Below are positions 8,316-56,751 of a DNA stretch of 64,000 nucleotides, one piece after another (the first letter of the stretch is position 1; the number at the start of each line of letters is the position of its first letter). The DNA comes from an uncultured Bacteroidota bacterium (GTDB lineage Bacteria; Bacteroidota; Bacteroidia; Chitinophagales; Chitinophagaceae). The notes below the pieces were generated by a model. It was given only the letters and a program-made list of their open reading frames with translations, ran no database searches and was not told where the DNA came from. The stretch is from NCBI GenBank assembly GCA_903839875.1, contig CAIMDZ010000113.1, forward strand, positions 1 through 64,000. The letters are read 5' to 3'. The translations under genes and the position numbers were made by a program.

Positions 8316-8372
8316 CTCTGTTTAACCTTTAAATTTTATTATCAAAATCCTCCATTCCACAAAAAGCCGGCA

Positions 8373-8476
8373 TTTCCACATCTCCACATTTTCAAATTCT
8401 CACATTTTCACATCTCCACATTTTCACATTTTCACATCTCAGAATTTTCAAATTTCCACATTTTCACATTTTCACA
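8373..8476 (-). repeat. 8-base tandem repeat (13 units) directly after a stop codon
   Basis: Read on the minus strand, thirteen near-perfect 8-base units of TGTGAAAA type (variants TTTGAAAA, TGTGGAAA, TGTGGAGA) run without a gap from the base after the TAA of the gene ending at 8477. The same unit follows the stop codons at 31412, 31542 and 56752. It fills most of the space to the mutase start. Confidence 0.85.
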
Positions 8477-9028
8477 TTAAATAGACCCCATCGACATTAC
8501 CCTTTTGCATTCGTCATTGATTATCTGAAGCGCCATATCGGTAGGCAGTTGTTCATCCGCTTTCAATAGAATGTCAAGGATACGTTTATGCAGTTCCTTA
8601 CCGGGTGCATCCGGATTTAAAGTCTGGGAAATACGTATGGCCATATTGATCTCCTGCTCTTTAACATTTTTCACTGTTTCCCAAACATTTTTGGATACGT
8701 ATATCTGCTGGGCAAGGTTATGCTCAAACTCAGCACGAATATTTATCACAATTGCCTGCTGCAAATCACTTACCGTCATTGCCGGAACATAGATACGCGG
8801 AATGAGCTGGCCGGGATTGATACGCTCAACAAACAACACGAGGCGCTCATATGCCTGCAACCGTAAACGCAGGGTAATATCCTGCGACTCCTGGAATATG
8901 GCCAGTTGTTTCCTCTGTACCTGCGATACAAGGAATTTCTTTACAATGCTATGGCTGGCTGCCAGCACAATAAGCGCAGGTATAGTGTATTTTAATATTT
9001 CGAGTAGTGTTGTTGTTACATTATCCAT
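8477..9028 (-). CDS. Membrane-anchored hypothetical protein
   Basis: Unrecognised 183-residue protein. One N-terminal membrane segment (about residues 8-30) is followed by a long, charged, mostly helical cytoplasmic region rich in Q, E and R (about 35-175), probably coiled-coil. An upstream in-frame ATG (9070) would prepend a poorly conserved-looking tail and overlap the region upstream of the divergent gene, so the ATG at 9028 (MDNVTT) is preferred. The stop codon is followed at once by the 13-unit 8-base repeat. Confidence 0.7.
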   Translation of the reverse strand: MDNVTTTLLEILKYTIPALIVLAASHSIVKKFLVSQVQRKQLAIFQESQDITLRLRLQAYERLVLFVERINPGQLIPRIYVPAMTVSDLQQAIVINIRAEFEHNLAQQIYVSKNVWETVKNVKEQEINMAIRISQTLNPDAPGKELHKRILDILLKADEQLPTDMALQIINDECKRVMSMGSI

Positions 9029-9100
9029 AATAGGGACAAAAATAAAGTGTTTATCGGGGATATGGCACAATTTTTAGGTAGTTCAGTTAAAATAGTACTT

Positions 9101-17991: not shown

Positions 17992-18025
17992 TGTTATCTT
18001 TTTACTTTTACATTTTACTTTCTTC

Positions 18026-18060
18026 TGTCAACTGCAAATTGCCAACTGCAAACTGCCAAC
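18026..18060 (-). repeat. 7-base tandem repeat (5 units) directly after the rpmB stop
   Basis: On the minus strand five 7-base units (GTTGGCA, GTTTGCA, GTTGGCA, ATTTGCA, GTTGACA) start at the base following the rpmB TAA and run toward rpmG. Same stop-anchored arrangement as the 8-base repeats elsewhere, but a different unit. Confidence 0.8.
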
Positions 18061-18297
18061 TTAAACAGTTATTCCCCTGGCACGCAGCGCATTCACTGTA
18101 GTTAGCAGCCCGTTCTTATTAATAGTACGGATAGCATCGGTGCTTAATTTCAAAGTGATCCAACGGTCTTCTTCAGCAAGGAAAAAGCGTTTGGTCTGCA
18201 GATTAGGCAGAAAACGACGCAATTTTTTCTTGTTGGAGAATGACACCTTGTGGCCAACTACTGGTTTCCTTCCTGTTACCTGACAAACGCGAGCCAT
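18061..18297 (-). CDS. rpmB: Large ribosomal subunit protein bL28
   Basis: A 78-residue bL28 with the family start MARVCQVTGRKPVVGHKVSFSN, central KRFFLAEEDRWITLKLST and C-terminal TINKNGLLTTV. Only one cysteine of the zinc-binding form remains, so it is the zinc-independent type, matching the bL33 downstream. It is first in its operon and has a well-formed promoter 24-54 bases upstream. Confidence 0.96.
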   Translation of the reverse strand: MARVCQVTGRKPVVGHKVSFSNKKKLRRFLPNLQTKRFFLAEEDRWITLKLSTDAIRTINKNGLLTTVNALRARGITV

Positions 18298-29100: not shown

Positions 29101-29274
29101 AGGCCAAATGAAAAACAAGGAAGTAGGGCAACATTCCCAATGATTTCGGCAAATAAAAAAGTGAAAACCCGGAAAGAAACCCAACATTCACGCTTTTTTA
29201 GGCAAATGAAAAAATGAAAAACAAGGAAGAAGGCCAACATTCCCAGTGATTTCGGCAAATAAAAAAGTGAAAAA
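29101..29274 (+). repeat. Two-copy direct repeat of about 70 bases
   Basis: 29101-29168 and 29200-29274 share AGGC-AAATGAAAAACAAGGAAG, AACATTCCCA-TGATTTCGGC and AAATAAAAAAGTGAAAA, with period about 106. A fragment (CCCAACATTC) between them looks like a partial third copy. No coding function is apparent. Confidence 0.7.
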
Positions 29275-29543
29275 CAAATTAATTATTTACTATATTTTAC
29301 CTTTTTTTTACCTTTTTTGGAAGTAAATTATTACTTTTTCACATTTAATAATTAGTCAATTAATTGATAATCAATACAATACCAGGGAAATGGTAAAAAG
29401 CAGGATGATCACAAAATTTTTCACCTTTTCTTTTGGCGATAATACTATACTTATTAATTTGCAATATTCAAACTCAGTATACCAATCGCGGACTTTAGAC
29501 TTAGACTCAAATAACTTAACACATTTTTCTCATTTATTTCCCC

Positions 29544-29621: not shown

Positions 29622-31412
29622 ATGTTAATGAATTCTTTTTCATCCTTCTCCATGCGTGAGGAGCTGACACGAGCTATTTCTGACCTCGGCTTTGAGACAC
29701 CTACTCCTATCCAATTAAAAGTAATACCTCAACTATTATCGGAGCCTATAGATATCATAGGATTAGCCCAGACCGGAACGGGCAAGACTGCTGCATATGG
29801 CATTCCATTGCTGCATCATGCTGATCTGACCGCAAAACATGTACAATGCCTGGTGCTGAGCCCCACGCGTGAACTCTGTATGCAGATACAGGAAGAACTG
29901 AGCAAGTACGGCACTCATATGCGCGGACTGCGTATAACCGCCGTATATGGCGGTGTGCCCATCACAGGCCAGATCCGCGAGATCCGTGCTAATCCGCAGG
30001 TAGTGGTTGCCACTCCCGGCCGCCTCATAGACCTGCTGGAACGCAAAGCTATCAATCTCGACAAAGTAGAGTATGTGATACTGGATGAGGCCGACGAAAT
30101 GCTGAACATGGGCTTCCGCGAGGATATTGACCTGATACTGAAAAACACTCCTGCACGTGAGCATACCTGGCTATTCAGCGCCACTATGAGCAATGAGGTG
30201 CGCGGCATTGCCAAGCGTTTCATGAAGGACTGGAAGGAGTATTCTGTTTCTGCACCAAACACTACCAACGAGAATATAGATCACCAGTACTTTGTTGCCA
30301 ATCATCACAACCGTTTTGAAACACTGCGCCGCCTGCTCGATTTCGCTCCCGGCATTTACGGCATCATCTTTACCCGCACCAAGAGCGATGCGCAGGAAGT
30401 AAGCGAGAAGCTGATGAAGATGGGCTACCATGTTAGTCCGCTGCACGGCGATATGGACCAGAAGATGCGTACTAAAGTAATGGACCGCTTCAAAGCCAAA
30501 CAACTGCAGGCCATAGTAGCTACCGACGTTGCCGCGCGCGGCATTGACGTAAACGACATAACCCACGTTATTAACTACGAGCTGCCCGATGACCCGGAAG
30601 TATATACCCACCGCAGCGGCCGTACGGCGCGCGCAGGCAAGAGCGGTATATGCATGAGCATCGTTTCACCAAAACAGATATCCAACATCCGCCAGATAGA
30701 ACGCCTCGTAAAACAGAAGTTCCACAAAAGCGATATACCCGATGGCGCCGAAGTGGTGCGTAAGAAGCTGTTCTTTTACTTAGAGCAGATAGCCACAGCA
30801 GAGCCCCAGGCCGATTTCGCCAAGCTCTACTGGGATGTAATGCACGAGCAGTTTGCAGACATGGATAAGGACGAACTGATACGCAAACTGATCTGGCTGC
30901 AACTGCGCGAAACCATTGATGCCTACCAGGATGCTGAAGACCTGAACGCAGGCTTTGAAAGCAAGGGGCGCGACAGAGGCGAAAGGGGCGAACGCAGCTT
31001 TAATAACAAGTCTGTGCGCCTGTTTATCAACCTCGGTGAGAAAGACGGCATCAACACAGGCAAGCTGATACAGTTCATCACCGATTCCAGCGACATTGAG
31101 CCTGGCCTTATAGACCGCGTAACCGTGCGTGATATGAGCAGCTTCTTCAATGTACCCGGCGATGCGGCCGAAGGACTTATGGAGATGCTGGGTTCAAAAA
31201 AATTCAAGGGCCGCAAAGTGCGCCTCGACGTAGCCGACCAGCCCATGGGTGGCAGTGGCGGCGGTGGTGGCAGACCATGGGAACGCGGAGGTGATCGTGG
31301 CAGCGACCGTGGCGGAGATTTCCGTGGCAAGCCAAAAGCAGCCAGCTCACGCTATTCAGGCGATGTGAAGGCTTATGGTGGCGGCGGAGGCTATAAGGGA
31401 AAACGCAAATAA
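29622..31412 (+). CDS. deaD: DEAD-box RNA helicase, DeaD/CsdA-like
   Basis: ATP-dependent RNA helicase of 596 residues. Motifs in order: Q motif (GFETPTPIQ), Walker A AQTGTGKTAAYG, PTRELCMQI, TPGRLID, Walker B DEADEMLNMGF, SAT, then the second RecA lobe with IIFTRTKSDAQE, ATDVAARGIDV and HRSGRTARAG. A DbpA-type RNA-binding domain lies at about 470-550, and the tail (about 555-596) is rich in RGG/GGG repeats. These enzymes unwind structured RNA in ribosome assembly and mRNA decay. A rho-independent terminator follows at 31461. Confidence 0.94.
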   Translation: MLMNSFSSFSMREELTRAISDLGFETPTPIQLKVIPQLLSEPIDIIGLAQTGTGKTAAYGIPLLHHADLTAKHVQCLVLSPTRELCMQIQEELSKYGTHMRGLRITAVYGGVPITGQIREIRANPQVVVATPGRLIDLLERKAINLDKVEYVILDEADEMLNMGFREDIDLILKNTPAREHTWLFSATMSNEVRGIAKRFMKDWKEYSVSAPNTTNENIDHQYFVANHHNRFETLRRLLDFAPGIYGIIFTRTKSDAQEVSEKLMKMGYHVSPLHGDMDQKMRTKVMDRFKAKQLQAIVATDVAARGIDVNDITHVINYELPDDPEVYTHRSGRTARAGKSGICMSIVSPKQISNIRQIERLVKQKFHKSDIPDGAEVVRKKLFFYLEQIATAEPQADFAKLYWDVMHEQFADMDKDELIRKLIWLQLRETIDAYQDAEDLNAGFESKGRDRGERGERSFNNKSVRLFINLGEKDGINTGKLIQFITDSSDIEPGLIDRVTVRDMSSFFNVPGDAAEGLMEMLGSKKFKGRKVRLDVADQPMGGSGGGGGRPWERGGDRGSDRGGDFRGKPKAASSRYSGDVKAYGGGGGYKGKRK

Positions 31413-31419
31413 TTCTCAA

Positions 31420-31435
31420 TTTGAAAATGTGGAAA
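31420..31435 (+). repeat. Two 8-base units after the helicase stop
   Basis: TTTGAAAA and TGTGGAAA, seven bases after the TAA, in the sense direction; the same unit type as 8373-8476. Confidence 0.55.
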
Positions 31436-31460
31436 TTAGTACTACAAGAATAGATATAAC

Positions 31461-31497: not shown

Positions 31498-31509
31498 TAT
31501 CTGAGTGCA

Positions 31510-31541
31510 TTTGCACATTTTCAAATTTGCACATTTTCAAA
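31510..31541 (-). repeat. 8-base tandem repeat (4 units) directly after stop codon
   Basis: Minus strand units TTTGAAAA, TGTGCAAA, TTTGAAAA, TGTGCAAA follow at once the TAA of the gene ending at 31542. Confidence 0.8.
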
Positions 31542-32390
31542 TTAATTAAACCTGTCATTCCAGTTATAGGTATCGTGTGTATTCCACCACCTGCTTTCTT
31601 TCCAGCGGCCGGCGAATGGCATGATAATAACCGAACCGATAATGCTGGAGGTTGATACTATTTTGAACGGACCATCAGTCATTCCCGGCACCGGTCCGTT
31701 TACTTCTATCAGCGATACTGTGCCCATTGTATAAGTAGCCCTTAGCTTCAGATCAAAACCCATAAAAAAAGAAACCTCTGCTTTTGCATAAGGGGTAAAT
31801 CCAAAACGGGAGCCATTAGGAAATCCGCTTGGCTCGCTAAGGCTGGTCATGTTGTACGCAGGTATAAACCCAACGCCAAGCGACGTACCCAACGGCAGTC
31901 TCTTCGTATCAAATGCGTCATTACCGCATTTCCAGTCTATGCCGATAGGCAAAGATATCTGCATGGTCTTGGCAGAAAGTATATTGCCTGATGGCGCCAC
32001 CAGGCTGCCATCGTTACCATAAGTACTGTTGATGTTAGTCCAGGTATACATATTCACGCCAAGCTGAACAGCTATAGCCCAAACGCTGATGTGACCAGTT
32101 GCCTTAAACGGCAGCGACAATCCTATTGAGCCGCCCATCCCACCAGTTCCGGCGATATTCCTTTTAATGGTTGTATCGCCAATATAATTGTTGTTGTTTA
32201 CCTGCTGCACGCCCTGAAAATAGCCATTAGGCATCACGTAATTAAAACTAAACTCATACCGCTTTGCGTCCCCCAGGTAACTCATAGTGGGATACAACTG
32301 CATATCGTGCATGTATTGCCCGAACACAGAAGCAGGGATTGCCAGTATGGTAAGCGCAAGAATTAAAAACGGCTTTTTAATAAAATTCAT
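31542..32390 (-). CDS. Secreted outer-membrane-type protein, paralog of next gene
   Basis: A 282-residue protein with a signal peptide (about 1-24, ends VFGQ) and glycine- and aromatic-rich beta-strand segments typical of outer-membrane barrels. It shares IGDTT..RNI, GPFK(I/V) and SxxIMPFAxxWK with the product of 32502-33305, so the two are paralogs in tandem. The ATG at 32390 is chosen because it starts the signal peptide; the longer frame adds 13 residues. Function unknown. Confidence 0.72.
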   Translation of the reverse strand: MNFIKKPFLILALTILAIPASVFGQYMHDMQLYPTMSYLGDAKRYEFSFNYVMPNGYFQGVQQVNNNNYIGDTTIKRNIAGTGGMGGSIGLSLPFKATGHISVWAIAVQLGVNMYTWTNINSTYGNDGSLVAPSGNILSAKTMQISLPIGIDWKCGNDAFDTKRLPLGTSLGVGFIPAYNMTSLSEPSGFPNGSRFGFTPYAKAEVSFFMGFDLKLRATYTMGTVSLIEVNGPVPGMTDGPFKIVSTSSIIGSVIIMPFAGRWKESRWWNTHDTYNWNDRFN

Positions 32391-32501
32391 AACAGGAGCC
32401 TTTAAGTTGTAAAAATATAAAAAGACCATTAAAAAAAGATACTATTTCCTTTAATGCGGTAATAATGTTTAAAATAGCCTTTCAATGAATAGCGTATTAC
32501 C

Positions 32502-49651: not shown

Positions 49652-49703
49652 TGACTCAATTGCTGAATGAATACGAAAATGAAGAAATTTAAAAATTTGA
49701 AAA
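49652..49703 (+). repeat. Degenerate 8-base repeat after the methyltransferase stop
   Basis: TGACTCAA, TTGCTGAA, TGAATACGAAAA, TGAAGAAA, TTTAAAAA, TTTGAAAA follow the TAA without gap. The last coding bases (TGGCTCAA) look like the same unit, so the repeat extends into the end of the gene. Confidence 0.5.
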
Positions 49704-49713
49704 TAATTATTTC

Positions 49714-50043: not shown

Positions 50044-50178
50044 TCAGATCTGAAAATCGAACATCATCAAATGATTTAGCGACCCTATCTTTCCCGGAAG
50101 GTTGAAGAGTACGTTGCCTGCGAAAATATATTCGCCTTTGAAGCCCCGGCAAAAGATTCCTCCATAAATGGCAACGCC
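50044..50178 (-). pseudogene. 3' remnant of a PQQ-type sugar dehydrogenase gene
   Basis: About 44 codons on the minus strand (GVAIYGGIFCRGFKGEYIFA, LFNLPGKIGSLNHLMMFDFQI, stop) resemble the last blade of glucose/sorbosone dehydrogenases (GGxxYRG..L.GKYIFGD). The rest of the gene is gone; an 8-base repeat (50180-50219) abuts its broken end. Domain identity is probable, not certain. Confidence 0.5.
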
Positions 50179-50179
50179 C

Positions 50180-50219
50180 TATCAACTTATCAACTTATCA
50201 ACTTATCAACCTATCAACC
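50180..50219 (-). repeat. 8-base tandem repeat (5 units) after the kup stop
   Basis: Minus strand units of AGTTGATA/GGTTGATA type lie 4 bases past the TAG of the kup gene at 50224. Unit differs from the TGTGAAAA family but has the same period and position. Confidence 0.8.
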
Positions 50220-50223
50220 TAAC

Positions 50224-56180: not shown

Positions 56181-56660
56181 TTATTTCCCTTCCATTTTCA
56201 GTAACCCTTCCATAACCGTAAATGCAATAGGACAAACAAGCGTATTTTTCAGCGTCAATTGCGTGCGTTTCAGGAAAACATCCTCATCGGTATAGGGGTA
56301 CCTCCGGCAGTCACTGGGGCGGTCATCGTAGATATTGCAAGTATTATCTTCAGCCAGGAACGGACAAGGCTTTTGCCGGGCCACATAATCGCCCTCTTCA
56401 TCTATTTTCAGGTATTGTGCCACCAGGTCGCCTTCCTTCATACGAAGCACCTTTGCAATACGTTTTATATCCGGTTGCTTAAAACGGGGAGAATGGTTTT
56501 TACAGCAGTTAGCGCAACTCAGGCAATCTATTTTACTAAAAGCCTCCTCATGCAGATCAGGCAAAGCCTTCAGCATCTTATTAAAGTTGCCCTTCTCCAA
56601 TAAATACTTGTATTCCTTCTGGTGCTCTTTAGCCTCTTTAAGTAATGAGTCGTAAGTCAT
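56181..56660 (-). CDS. ykgJ: YkgJ family cysteine cluster protein
   Basis: A 159-residue protein with the CxxCxxCC cluster motif (DCLSCANCCKNHSPRF), then CPFLAEDNTCNIYDDRPSDCRRYP and a final VCPIAF; these cysteines likely bind zinc or an iron-sulfur centre. Function unknown. Unusually, its start codon and first residues lie inside a 7-base tandem repeat (CTTTCTA, CTTTCTA, CTTATGA, CTTACGA, CTCATTA, CTTAAAG read on the minus strand), so MTYDSLL is encoded by the repeat. The gene may be cotranscribed with parB, whose stop is 91 bases upstream. Confidence 0.85.
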   Translation of the reverse strand: MTYDSLLKEAKEHQKEYKYLLEKGNFNKMLKALPDLHEEAFSKIDCLSCANCCKNHSPRFKQPDIKRIAKVLRMKEGDLVAQYLKIDEEGDYVARQKPCPFLAEDNTCNIYDDRPSDCRRYPYTDEDVFLKRTQLTLKNTLVCPIAFTVMEGLLKMEGK

Positions 56661-56677
56661 AAGTAGAAAGTAGAAAG
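56636..56677 (-). repeat. 7-base repeat (6 units) spanning the ykgJ start
   Basis: Six 7-base units beginning CTT or CTC on the minus strand; the third contains the ATG. Confidence 0.75.
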
Positions 56678-56701
56678 CTGTTATGCAATGGGGACATTTT
56701 C

Positions 56702-56727
56702 AAACCTGCCTGCCGGCAGGCAGGTTT
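56702..56727. repeat. 26-base perfect palindrome between parB and ykgJ
   Basis: AAACCTGCCTGCC followed by its exact complement; it splits the 8-base repeat that follows parB. REP-type element common in this phylum. Confidence 0.85.
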
Positions 56728-56748
56728 CCTCATTTTCAAATTTCCACA
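56725..56748 (-). repeat. 8-base repeat (3 units) after the parB stop
   Basis: Minus strand TGTGGAAA, TTTGAAAA, TGAGGAAA, 3 bases after the TGA of parB; one more unit (TTTGAAAA) lies beyond the palindrome. Confidence 0.75.
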
Positions 56749-56751
56749 TTA

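Follow-up and report, generated by a model that had tools for sequence, protein, structure and literature searches.

Filamentous cyanobacteria carry the STRR heptanucleotide repeats, several 7-nt tandem families per genome that are intergenic and dispersed. Three heptanucleotides of Calothrix are mentioned in the accessible sections of a study on the GGGNATC/GGGGA(C/T)T heptamers of Xanthomonas and Nostoc (Rehm et al. 2015, PMC4692102). According to these sections, the GGGNATC repeats are mostly intergenic and dispersed, and most of them are found no more than 50 bp past a stop (sense) or ahead of a start (antisense). Convergent inverted pairs occur in Xanthomonas, array length and sequence differ between species, and most loci are common to both Xanthomonas species compared. 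G-quadruplexes were suggested for these repeats, and their functional role was described as still to be elucidated. The TAACTGA direct repeats, as presented in the available part of MacGregor 2015 (PMC4679880), are heptamers known from Beggiatoaceae, cyanobacteria and five Bacteroidetes; they number 2–6 copies, and elsewhere as many as 43. They are mostly "forward" before starts; one set in Flexibacter litoralis is reversed directly after a stop. In the REP/RAYT system, REP termini often provide the TAG stop of flanking ORFs (excerpts of Di Nocera et al. 2013, PMC3733652). A 2025 short tandem repeat survey, in the portion available, reports a high density in Bacteroidota (PMC12699852).

The window is the whole 64-kb stretch of DNA analysed here, from the genome of an uncultured Bacteroidota bacterium, probably of the Chitinophagaceae. 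It holds the following repeats at gene ends:

8371..8476, minus strand: octamer array TGTGAAAA/TGTGGAAA/TTTGAAAA (TKTGRAAA family), about 13 units; TRF scores 97–123
18025..18060, minus strand: heptamer array AGTTGGC/AGTTTGC, 5 units, 0 nt past the rpmB stop (18061–18063)
31418..31438, plus strand: 2 octamer units, 5 nt past the stop of the DEAD-box RNA helicase gene 29622–31412; weak alone
31508..31541, minus strand: 4 octamer units, 0 nt past the stop of gene 31542–32429; perfect 16-bp period, TRF score 70
49677..49704, plus strand: degenerate A-rich octamer-like stretch downstream of the SpoU-type methyltransferase stop (49651); weak
50178..50221, minus strand: octamer array of the GTTGATAA family, about 5 units, 2–4 nt past the kup stop (50224); TRF score 71
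56641..56677, plus strand: heptamer array AGTAATGAGTCGTAAGTCATAAGTAGAAAGTAGAAAG (AGTNNNA family), overlapping the start codon (56660) of the minus-strand gene 56181–56660
56725–56750, minus strand: TKTGRAAA-family octamers, 3–4 units, 1–3 nt past the parB stop (56752), depending on the unit start chosen

The initial annotation had named seven stops in the window that are followed by repeats read in the sense of the gene. All seven repeats are present; five of them stand on their own, and those after the helicase and methyltransferase genes are weak. The methyltransferase stretch is accepted by one detector, at 25 nt past the stop, and the detector that requires five identical columns accepts none there. 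At the minus-strand DUF7935 gene (8477–9070), the octamers start immediately 3′ of the TAA and reach to about 8371; one long array of this kind can be scored as two pieces (8368–8441 and 8442–8481). The units after rpmB run AGTTGGC-AGTTTGC-AGTTGGC-AATTTGC-AGTTGAC. Because rpmB is absent from our own gene calls, its array was wrongly scored as near a start and inward in both detector runs. The two units at the helicase stop face the array of gene 31542–32429, with a GC-rich hairpin in between, and that gene belongs to no NCBIfam or Pfam family. In the parB region (56695..56750, minus strand), the octamers are followed by the palindrome CCTGCCTGCCGGCAGGCAGG (56705–56724) and then by one unit-like stretch running from 56704 to 56695.

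The heptamers at 56641–56677 had been missed by the initial annotation. They point away from the CxxCxxCC-family gene 56181–56660, whose start codon lies in the array, and they continue into AAAGCTG (56674–56680), which matches the tail type AAARCTR described below. The first codons of this gene are composed of repeat units. Autocorrelation 3′ of stops gave small peaks at 8 and its multiples, and an Rfam scan of the window gave 0 matches at gathering scores. Upstream of the helicase gene, a long intergenic region contains a 53-bp tandem repeat (3.2 copies, 29109–29277 of the window).

The scan for arrays was run on the window plus 80 further stretches, together 1.383 Mb of the 5.293-Mb genome, or about one quarter. 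One set of these stretches was chosen in favour of contigs holding the octamer, and another set mostly extends contigs already sampled. Genes were called by a simple codon-based method, 1153 in all, which left 846 gaps of 25–800 nt. Arrays were called when at least five columns were identical across three consecutive units with a period of 7 or 8 nt, a detector that favours column-wise conservation; the repeat families were recognised partly by eye. An array was scored as outward when its purine-richer strand, the one in which G also exceeds C, runs away from the gene; the strand was taken from a combined purine and G-minus-C score or, for each family, from the motif. G>C alone was dropped as the criterion since it misplaced the T-rich strands of some families. 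By these definitions the 846 gaps hold 134 arrays of period 7 or 8, against 8 in Markov-shuffled gaps.

At stops as well as at starts, the arrays are directed away from the gene. In the 1.38-Mb sample, 56 arrays within 20 nt of stops were outward and 6 were inward, and the corresponding numbers for starts were 22 and 5. More than 20 nt from gene ends they were 31 and 14, one of the 14 being the misplaced rpmB array. Over all distances the ratio is 109 to 25 (binomial, 1e-13). When arrays were placed and oriented at random within these gaps, 18.5/18.5 outward/inward were expected at stops and 13.8/13.9 at starts; the outward number at stops had a standard deviation of 3.7 and a maximum of 32 in 2000 trials. 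With arbitrary contigs only, the bias was weaker and its direction unchanged (stops 17/4, starts 6/3, total 31/13). The outward strand is the coding strand after stops and the opposite strand before starts.

The initial annotation had put several unrelated units under one position and strand rule at stops, and this rule lies well beyond chance. The scan for enrichment and strand bias that it had proposed, run here on about one quarter of the genome, found both. The rule is not confined to stops, since arrays also abut starts in the opposite sense. This two-ended arrangement weakens the 3′ UTR or termination as the whole explanation; the factor common to both ends is "away from the coding sequence".

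The same picture was obtained with 12 motif patterns. In the window's genome they gave, within 30 nt of gene ends, 50 outward and 3 inward at stops and 44 and 0 at starts; the Sediminibacterium counts were 34/3 and 17/1. Far from ends, the two genomes gave 34/20 and 35/14, respectively. These counts omit 56 and 19 matches inside ORFs, and the outward strand of each family was picked after the earlier results, with one choice per family. With that one choice, one strand per family is outward at both gene ends, independent of the unit sequence. Outward arrays stand at both ends of one gap in 6 of the 674 gaps of at least 80 nt (expected 2.3), and some convergent pairs within one gap mix different families. 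Arrays at both ends of one gene were seen in 5 cases (expected 1.5).

In the window's genome, the density of array heads from stops, per kb of available positions, was 2.95 per kb at −16..−1, 2.19 at 0..9 and 1.01 at 10..19 nt, and 0.14–0.21 per kb beyond 40 nt. From starts it was 2.05 per kb at 0..9 nt, 0.12–0.79 farther out and 0.12–0.55 beyond 40 nt. The outward excess over the deep-gap density is therefore 10- to 21-fold at stops and 4- to 17-fold at starts (0–9 nt), where the deep-gap density is possibly lowered by genes that the caller missed. Array tails show no peak at gene ends and are scarce near them. Since a filter can only deplete and cannot raise the density of the right orientation, the arrays are anchored at gene ends, beyond the mere removal of wrong orientations. 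In Sediminibacterium, heads reach 5.9–9.3 per kb up to 19 nt from stops and 0.3–1.5 beyond. At its starts, the outward density is near background, inward arrays are absent, and there are 0 tails within 29 nt; this looks more like filtering than anchoring.

We compared other genomes. A 400-kb part of Sediminibacterium goheungense holds 133 arrays in 263 gaps, against 2 in shuffles. Within 20 nt they are oriented 53 outward to 6 inward at stops and 12 to 0 at starts; farther away the ratio is 42 to 20. The units are mostly different ones (GTGAGTA, GATGTCA, AAGTCCG, AATGGTG), with TTTGAAAA common to both genomes. The GGCTAA family of Sediminibacterium behaves in the opposite way (1 outward and 3 inward near ends), in few cases, and the other strand may be the outward one. 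No array was found in 150 kb of E. coli K-12 (80 gaps; 1 in shuffles) or in 400 kb of Shewanella kaireitica (244 gaps; 4 in shuffles). Among congeners, 79 loci (307 kb) scored by G>C gave 13 outward and 1 inward at stops and 5 and 3 at starts. Three successive octamer units occur in 8 of 40 genomes of the order, our own genome included.

Arrays of the TGTGAAAA octamer were found at no fewer than 114 loci in contigs of named genomes. They stand 49 outward to 8 inward at stops and 24 to 6 at starts, counts that omit 39 arrays in called ORFs and 3 that were far away or at contig edges. Of those 39, 35 sit in ORFs on the opposite strand, the complement being open in all frames. Among the best 80 of the at least 114 loci, 73 are in Bacteroidota by name and none in a cyanobacterium; the 7 others are in Shewanella (3), Alteromonadales/Alteromonadaceae (2) and one verrucomicrobial assembly (2). 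Shewanella species hold such arrays at few places (three loci), yet the 400 kb of S. kaireitica has none, and a horizontal arrival in Shewanella is possible. Very long octamer arrays of 200–315 bp were seen at four loci, and a Draconibacterium metagenome assembly gave 155 matches of the octamer pattern, overlapping ones counted.

The units share a plan of constant and variable letters. GTTGA is followed by three variable letters, TKTGRAAA varies at positions 2 and 5, AGT is joined to variable positions, and there is an ATTNGGA family. The three main families (TGTGAAAA, GTTGATAA and AGTNNNA) make up 106 of the 134 arrays. The TKTGRAAA, GTTGANNN and AGTNNNA consensus sequences contain no run of three G, and ATTNGGA has GGG in some units only.

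Unit families occur at many loci with identical variant letters. In the AGT family, two distal tails recur: YYGCGR is found in 12 of 85 arrays, against 1 at the head and an expectation of 1.3, and AAARCTR is found in 10 of 85, against 0 at the head and an expectation of 0.7. A scan of the remaining families for enriched six-letter words gave mostly fragments of the units themselves. A variable head at the gene with a common distal tail suggests a polar element copied between loci. The initial annotation had preferred a generating process or a function to one spreading element. That preference is now doubtful, since families recur with the same variant letters and one of them has common distal tails, a pattern that looks like dispersal of several elements.

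The rule also holds for a non-tandem element. The C-rich hairpin element AACCCC-n-CCCCTAAAGGGG, which was first noticed past congener kup and parB stops at seven loci, has 24 matches in the window's genome, 18 outward and 2 inward, with 2 others inside ORFs and 2 at edges. Of the outward ones, 12 lie within 20 nt of stops and 4 within 20 nt of starts. Because this element obeys the rule, the outward rule is independent of being a tandem array. Hugging of gene ends is also not a property of every repeat: the palindrome CCTGCCTGCCGGCAGGCAGG is common in gaps of the genome, and only 4 of its 36 placed matches hug gene ends when both strands are counted and 9 further matches inside ORFs or at edges are omitted.

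Orthologous stops were compared at 20 loci for kup, 25 for parB and 24 for DUF7935, our own locus included; the comparison was read by eye and 4 loci end before the stop. Within one genus, the same stop is followed by octamers, heptamers, AATGGCTT octamers, the C-rich element or nothing, depending on the species. The protein ends of these orthologs are mostly alike. Judged from these comparisons, such turnover argues against a function that is conserved and tied to the gene, and in favour of what would be repeated arrival at the same place.

How do these arrays relate to the described systems? As with the STRR repeats, several dispersed intergenic 7-nt tandem families are present, and 8-nt families too. 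The STRR hosts are filamentous cyanobacteria, whereas the host phylum here is a different one, and the TGTGAAAA octamer is in no cyanobacterium among the matches listed. The likeness to GGGNATC, as far as that repeat is described in the available sections of PMC4692102, is the outward position close to the ORF at both ends, and convergent outward pairs in one gap, as in Xanthomonas, occur here too. Unlike GGGNATC, which is one unit with a G-tract, there are many 7- and 8-nt families here, mostly free of G-tracts. In the same sections most loci are common to the two Xanthomonas species, whereas more distant congeners rarely share loci here. Two further differences are the distal tails common to one family here and the non-tandem element that obeys the rule as well. 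The initial annotation had known of no described mechanism: none is established in the accessible text of PMC4692102, although the geometry itself had already been described there for GGGNATC.

The available part of PMC4679880 describes TAACTGA as one unit acting upstream of starts, with no notice of a two-ended rule; the Flexibacter litoralis case given there fits such a rule. The units found here differ from TAACTGA. The arrays are, like REP/RAYT elements, dispersed, polar and mostly intergenic, and REPs are often paired in opposite orientation (PMC3733652, in the excerpts available). Unlike REPs, which are palindromes tagged GTAG/CGTC, the arrays are direct repeats with no stem of their own. 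The genome has 3 matches to Y1_Tnp transposase over the Pfam cut-off and 1 below. By eye, palindromes adjoin the Y1 genes, and no 7- or 8-nt array directly flanks any of the 4 places; no link from arrays to a RAYT gene was found there. At one of these four RAYT-like genes the stop TAG falls in the palindromic element. A literature search limited to open-licence papers found no description of the two-ended rule in Bacteroidota, and the exact repeat strings gave only unrelated matches in that literature.

The arrays are lineage-specific families of dispersed, polar 7- or 8-nt tandem elements, whose 5′ head, on one defined strand per family, tends to be flush with the coding sequence at its stop or start and which point into the intergenic DNA. 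For their origin, several explanations were weighed. One is selection as a filter only: repeats would be born without orientation anywhere in gaps, harmful orientations would be lost and outward ones would remain. Purine-rich repeats might be harmful before starts, through stray start codons or mimicry of ribosome binding, and pyrimidine-rich ones after stops. This fits the near absence of inward arrays at starts by motif (0 of 44 in our genome, 1 of 18 in Sediminibacterium), the purine richness of most outward strands and the near-background outward density at Sediminibacterium starts. However, the excess at gene ends over the deep gap, already given, is more than a process that only depletes would leave. 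Gene ends that carry no array show no marked purine skew, and base composition was rejected on this ground as a source of the strand rule. The element AACCCC-n-CCCCTAAAGGGG points outward in spite of its pyrimidine-rich head. Avoidance of start codons upstream cannot act alone either, since AAAAGTC-type units place TTG start codons on the strand preceding the start and still obey. We consider the filter, in its general as in its detailed form, unlikely as the only cause. Bias coupled to transcription or replication is excluded by logic as the sole cause, because the orientation flips between two ends that are transcribed in one direction.

A positive function in RNA would make the arrays past stops, and their complements ahead of starts, binding sites or spacers for protection of mRNA 3′ ends or for control of translation or antisense transcription, with multimeric or multi-domain RNA-binding proteins reading one core per 7–8 nt. 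The flush position, the strand rule and the conserved cores with variable spacer letters agree with it. TAACTGA repeats before starts were proposed as sites of a translational regulator (available part of PMC4679880), and Xanthomonas repeats are mostly transcribed, with transcript starts and stops commoner at the G4-forming ones than at controls (accessible sections of PMC4692102). Against it, many unrelated cores follow the rule, and congeners do not keep the arrays at the orthologous stops of the three genes compared. Among the gap ends sampled, an array head lies within 20 nt at 61 of 863 stops and at 24 of 913 starts, where the number of ends is the bases of the counting interval divided by 37. 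The genes next to repeats span functional classes in the same sections of PMC4692102, where a regulatory role could not be identified. Termination had also been raised by the initial annotation. Terminator-like hairpins follow 7 of 35 array stops and 24 of 150 other stops (sampled from 521), about equal, and the best hairpin within 140 nt is if anything weaker after array stops (median −9.5 vs −11.3 kcal/mol), so no sign of terminator action was found and intrinsic terminators were rejected. A promoter-like TAnnTTTG was seen at 9 of 17 start arrays. An RNA function is in our view improbable, and we place it just behind the filter. Stop codons in all three frames after the gene, supplied by the units as a guard, would suit the TGTGAAAA, GTTGATAA, AGTCGTA and AATGGCTT units, which hold TGA, TAA or TAG, and the genes that end inside an array; AGTTGGC, AAAAGTC and TTTGGAA are free of stops in every frame in their consensus and obey the rule all the same, and stop-free units also flank start codons, which makes this reading very hard to sustain. 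A G-quadruplex function as proposed for GGGNATC has the identical geometry in its favour (available text of PMC4692102), but the main families, 106 of the 134 arrays, lack GGG in their consensus; we give it practically no credit. G-quadruplexes are not the general cause, because most units have no G-tracts.

The reading we rank highest, above the selection filter and the RNA function, is a polar insertion or extension confined by the coding sequence, together with slippage and copying, although we put it somewhat short of an even chance and its enzymatic steps are those we infer. New repeats would be added 5′-to-3′ from the end of the coding sequence, where the last indispensable bases lie, into dispensable DNA. 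Local growth and diversification would proceed by slippage, as runs of identical unit variants suggest, and copying between loci could account for the common unit variants and for the common distal tails in one family. In a concrete version, repair of a break in the intergenic DNA would first trim each 3′ end as far as the gene and then add repeat units to it. The excess was found both within gaps (6 vs 2.3) and within genes (5 vs 1.5), so that a break model at the level of the gap is not singled out. A telomerase-like reverse transcriptase was considered and set aside: the genome has no match to RVT_1 and no candidate enzyme. Selection would form a second layer at start codons, where arrays in the wrong orientation are few. 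Under the polar reading the elements would be mostly selfish or neutral DNA, and no G-quadruplex would be needed. The conserved cores with variable positions (GTTGA kept, the last three letters variable) count against it; they could reflect selection for binding, although the detector itself favours such columns.

In two other bacterial groups the two-ended geometry is known from a single repeat type; here it is found with many types, in Bacteroidota. With a rule that spans many units and a non-tandem element, the G-quadruplex is removed as a general cause. More tentatively, we suggest a possible general polar process in Bacteroidota that lays repeat DNA outward from both ends of coding sequences, with any unit and even with non-tandem elements. 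On this same reading, a like process would also have produced the repeats of Xanthomonas, Nostoc and Beggiatoa. If true, it would mean a process at the level of DNA that reads gene boundaries, or is confined by them, regardless of the direction of transcription. An oddity of two genera thereby becomes a testable question, how intergenic DNA arises and is replaced. With 133 arrays in 263 gaps in the sampled part of S. goheungense, the non-coding DNA of some Bacteroidota may owe much of its make-up to elements of this kind.
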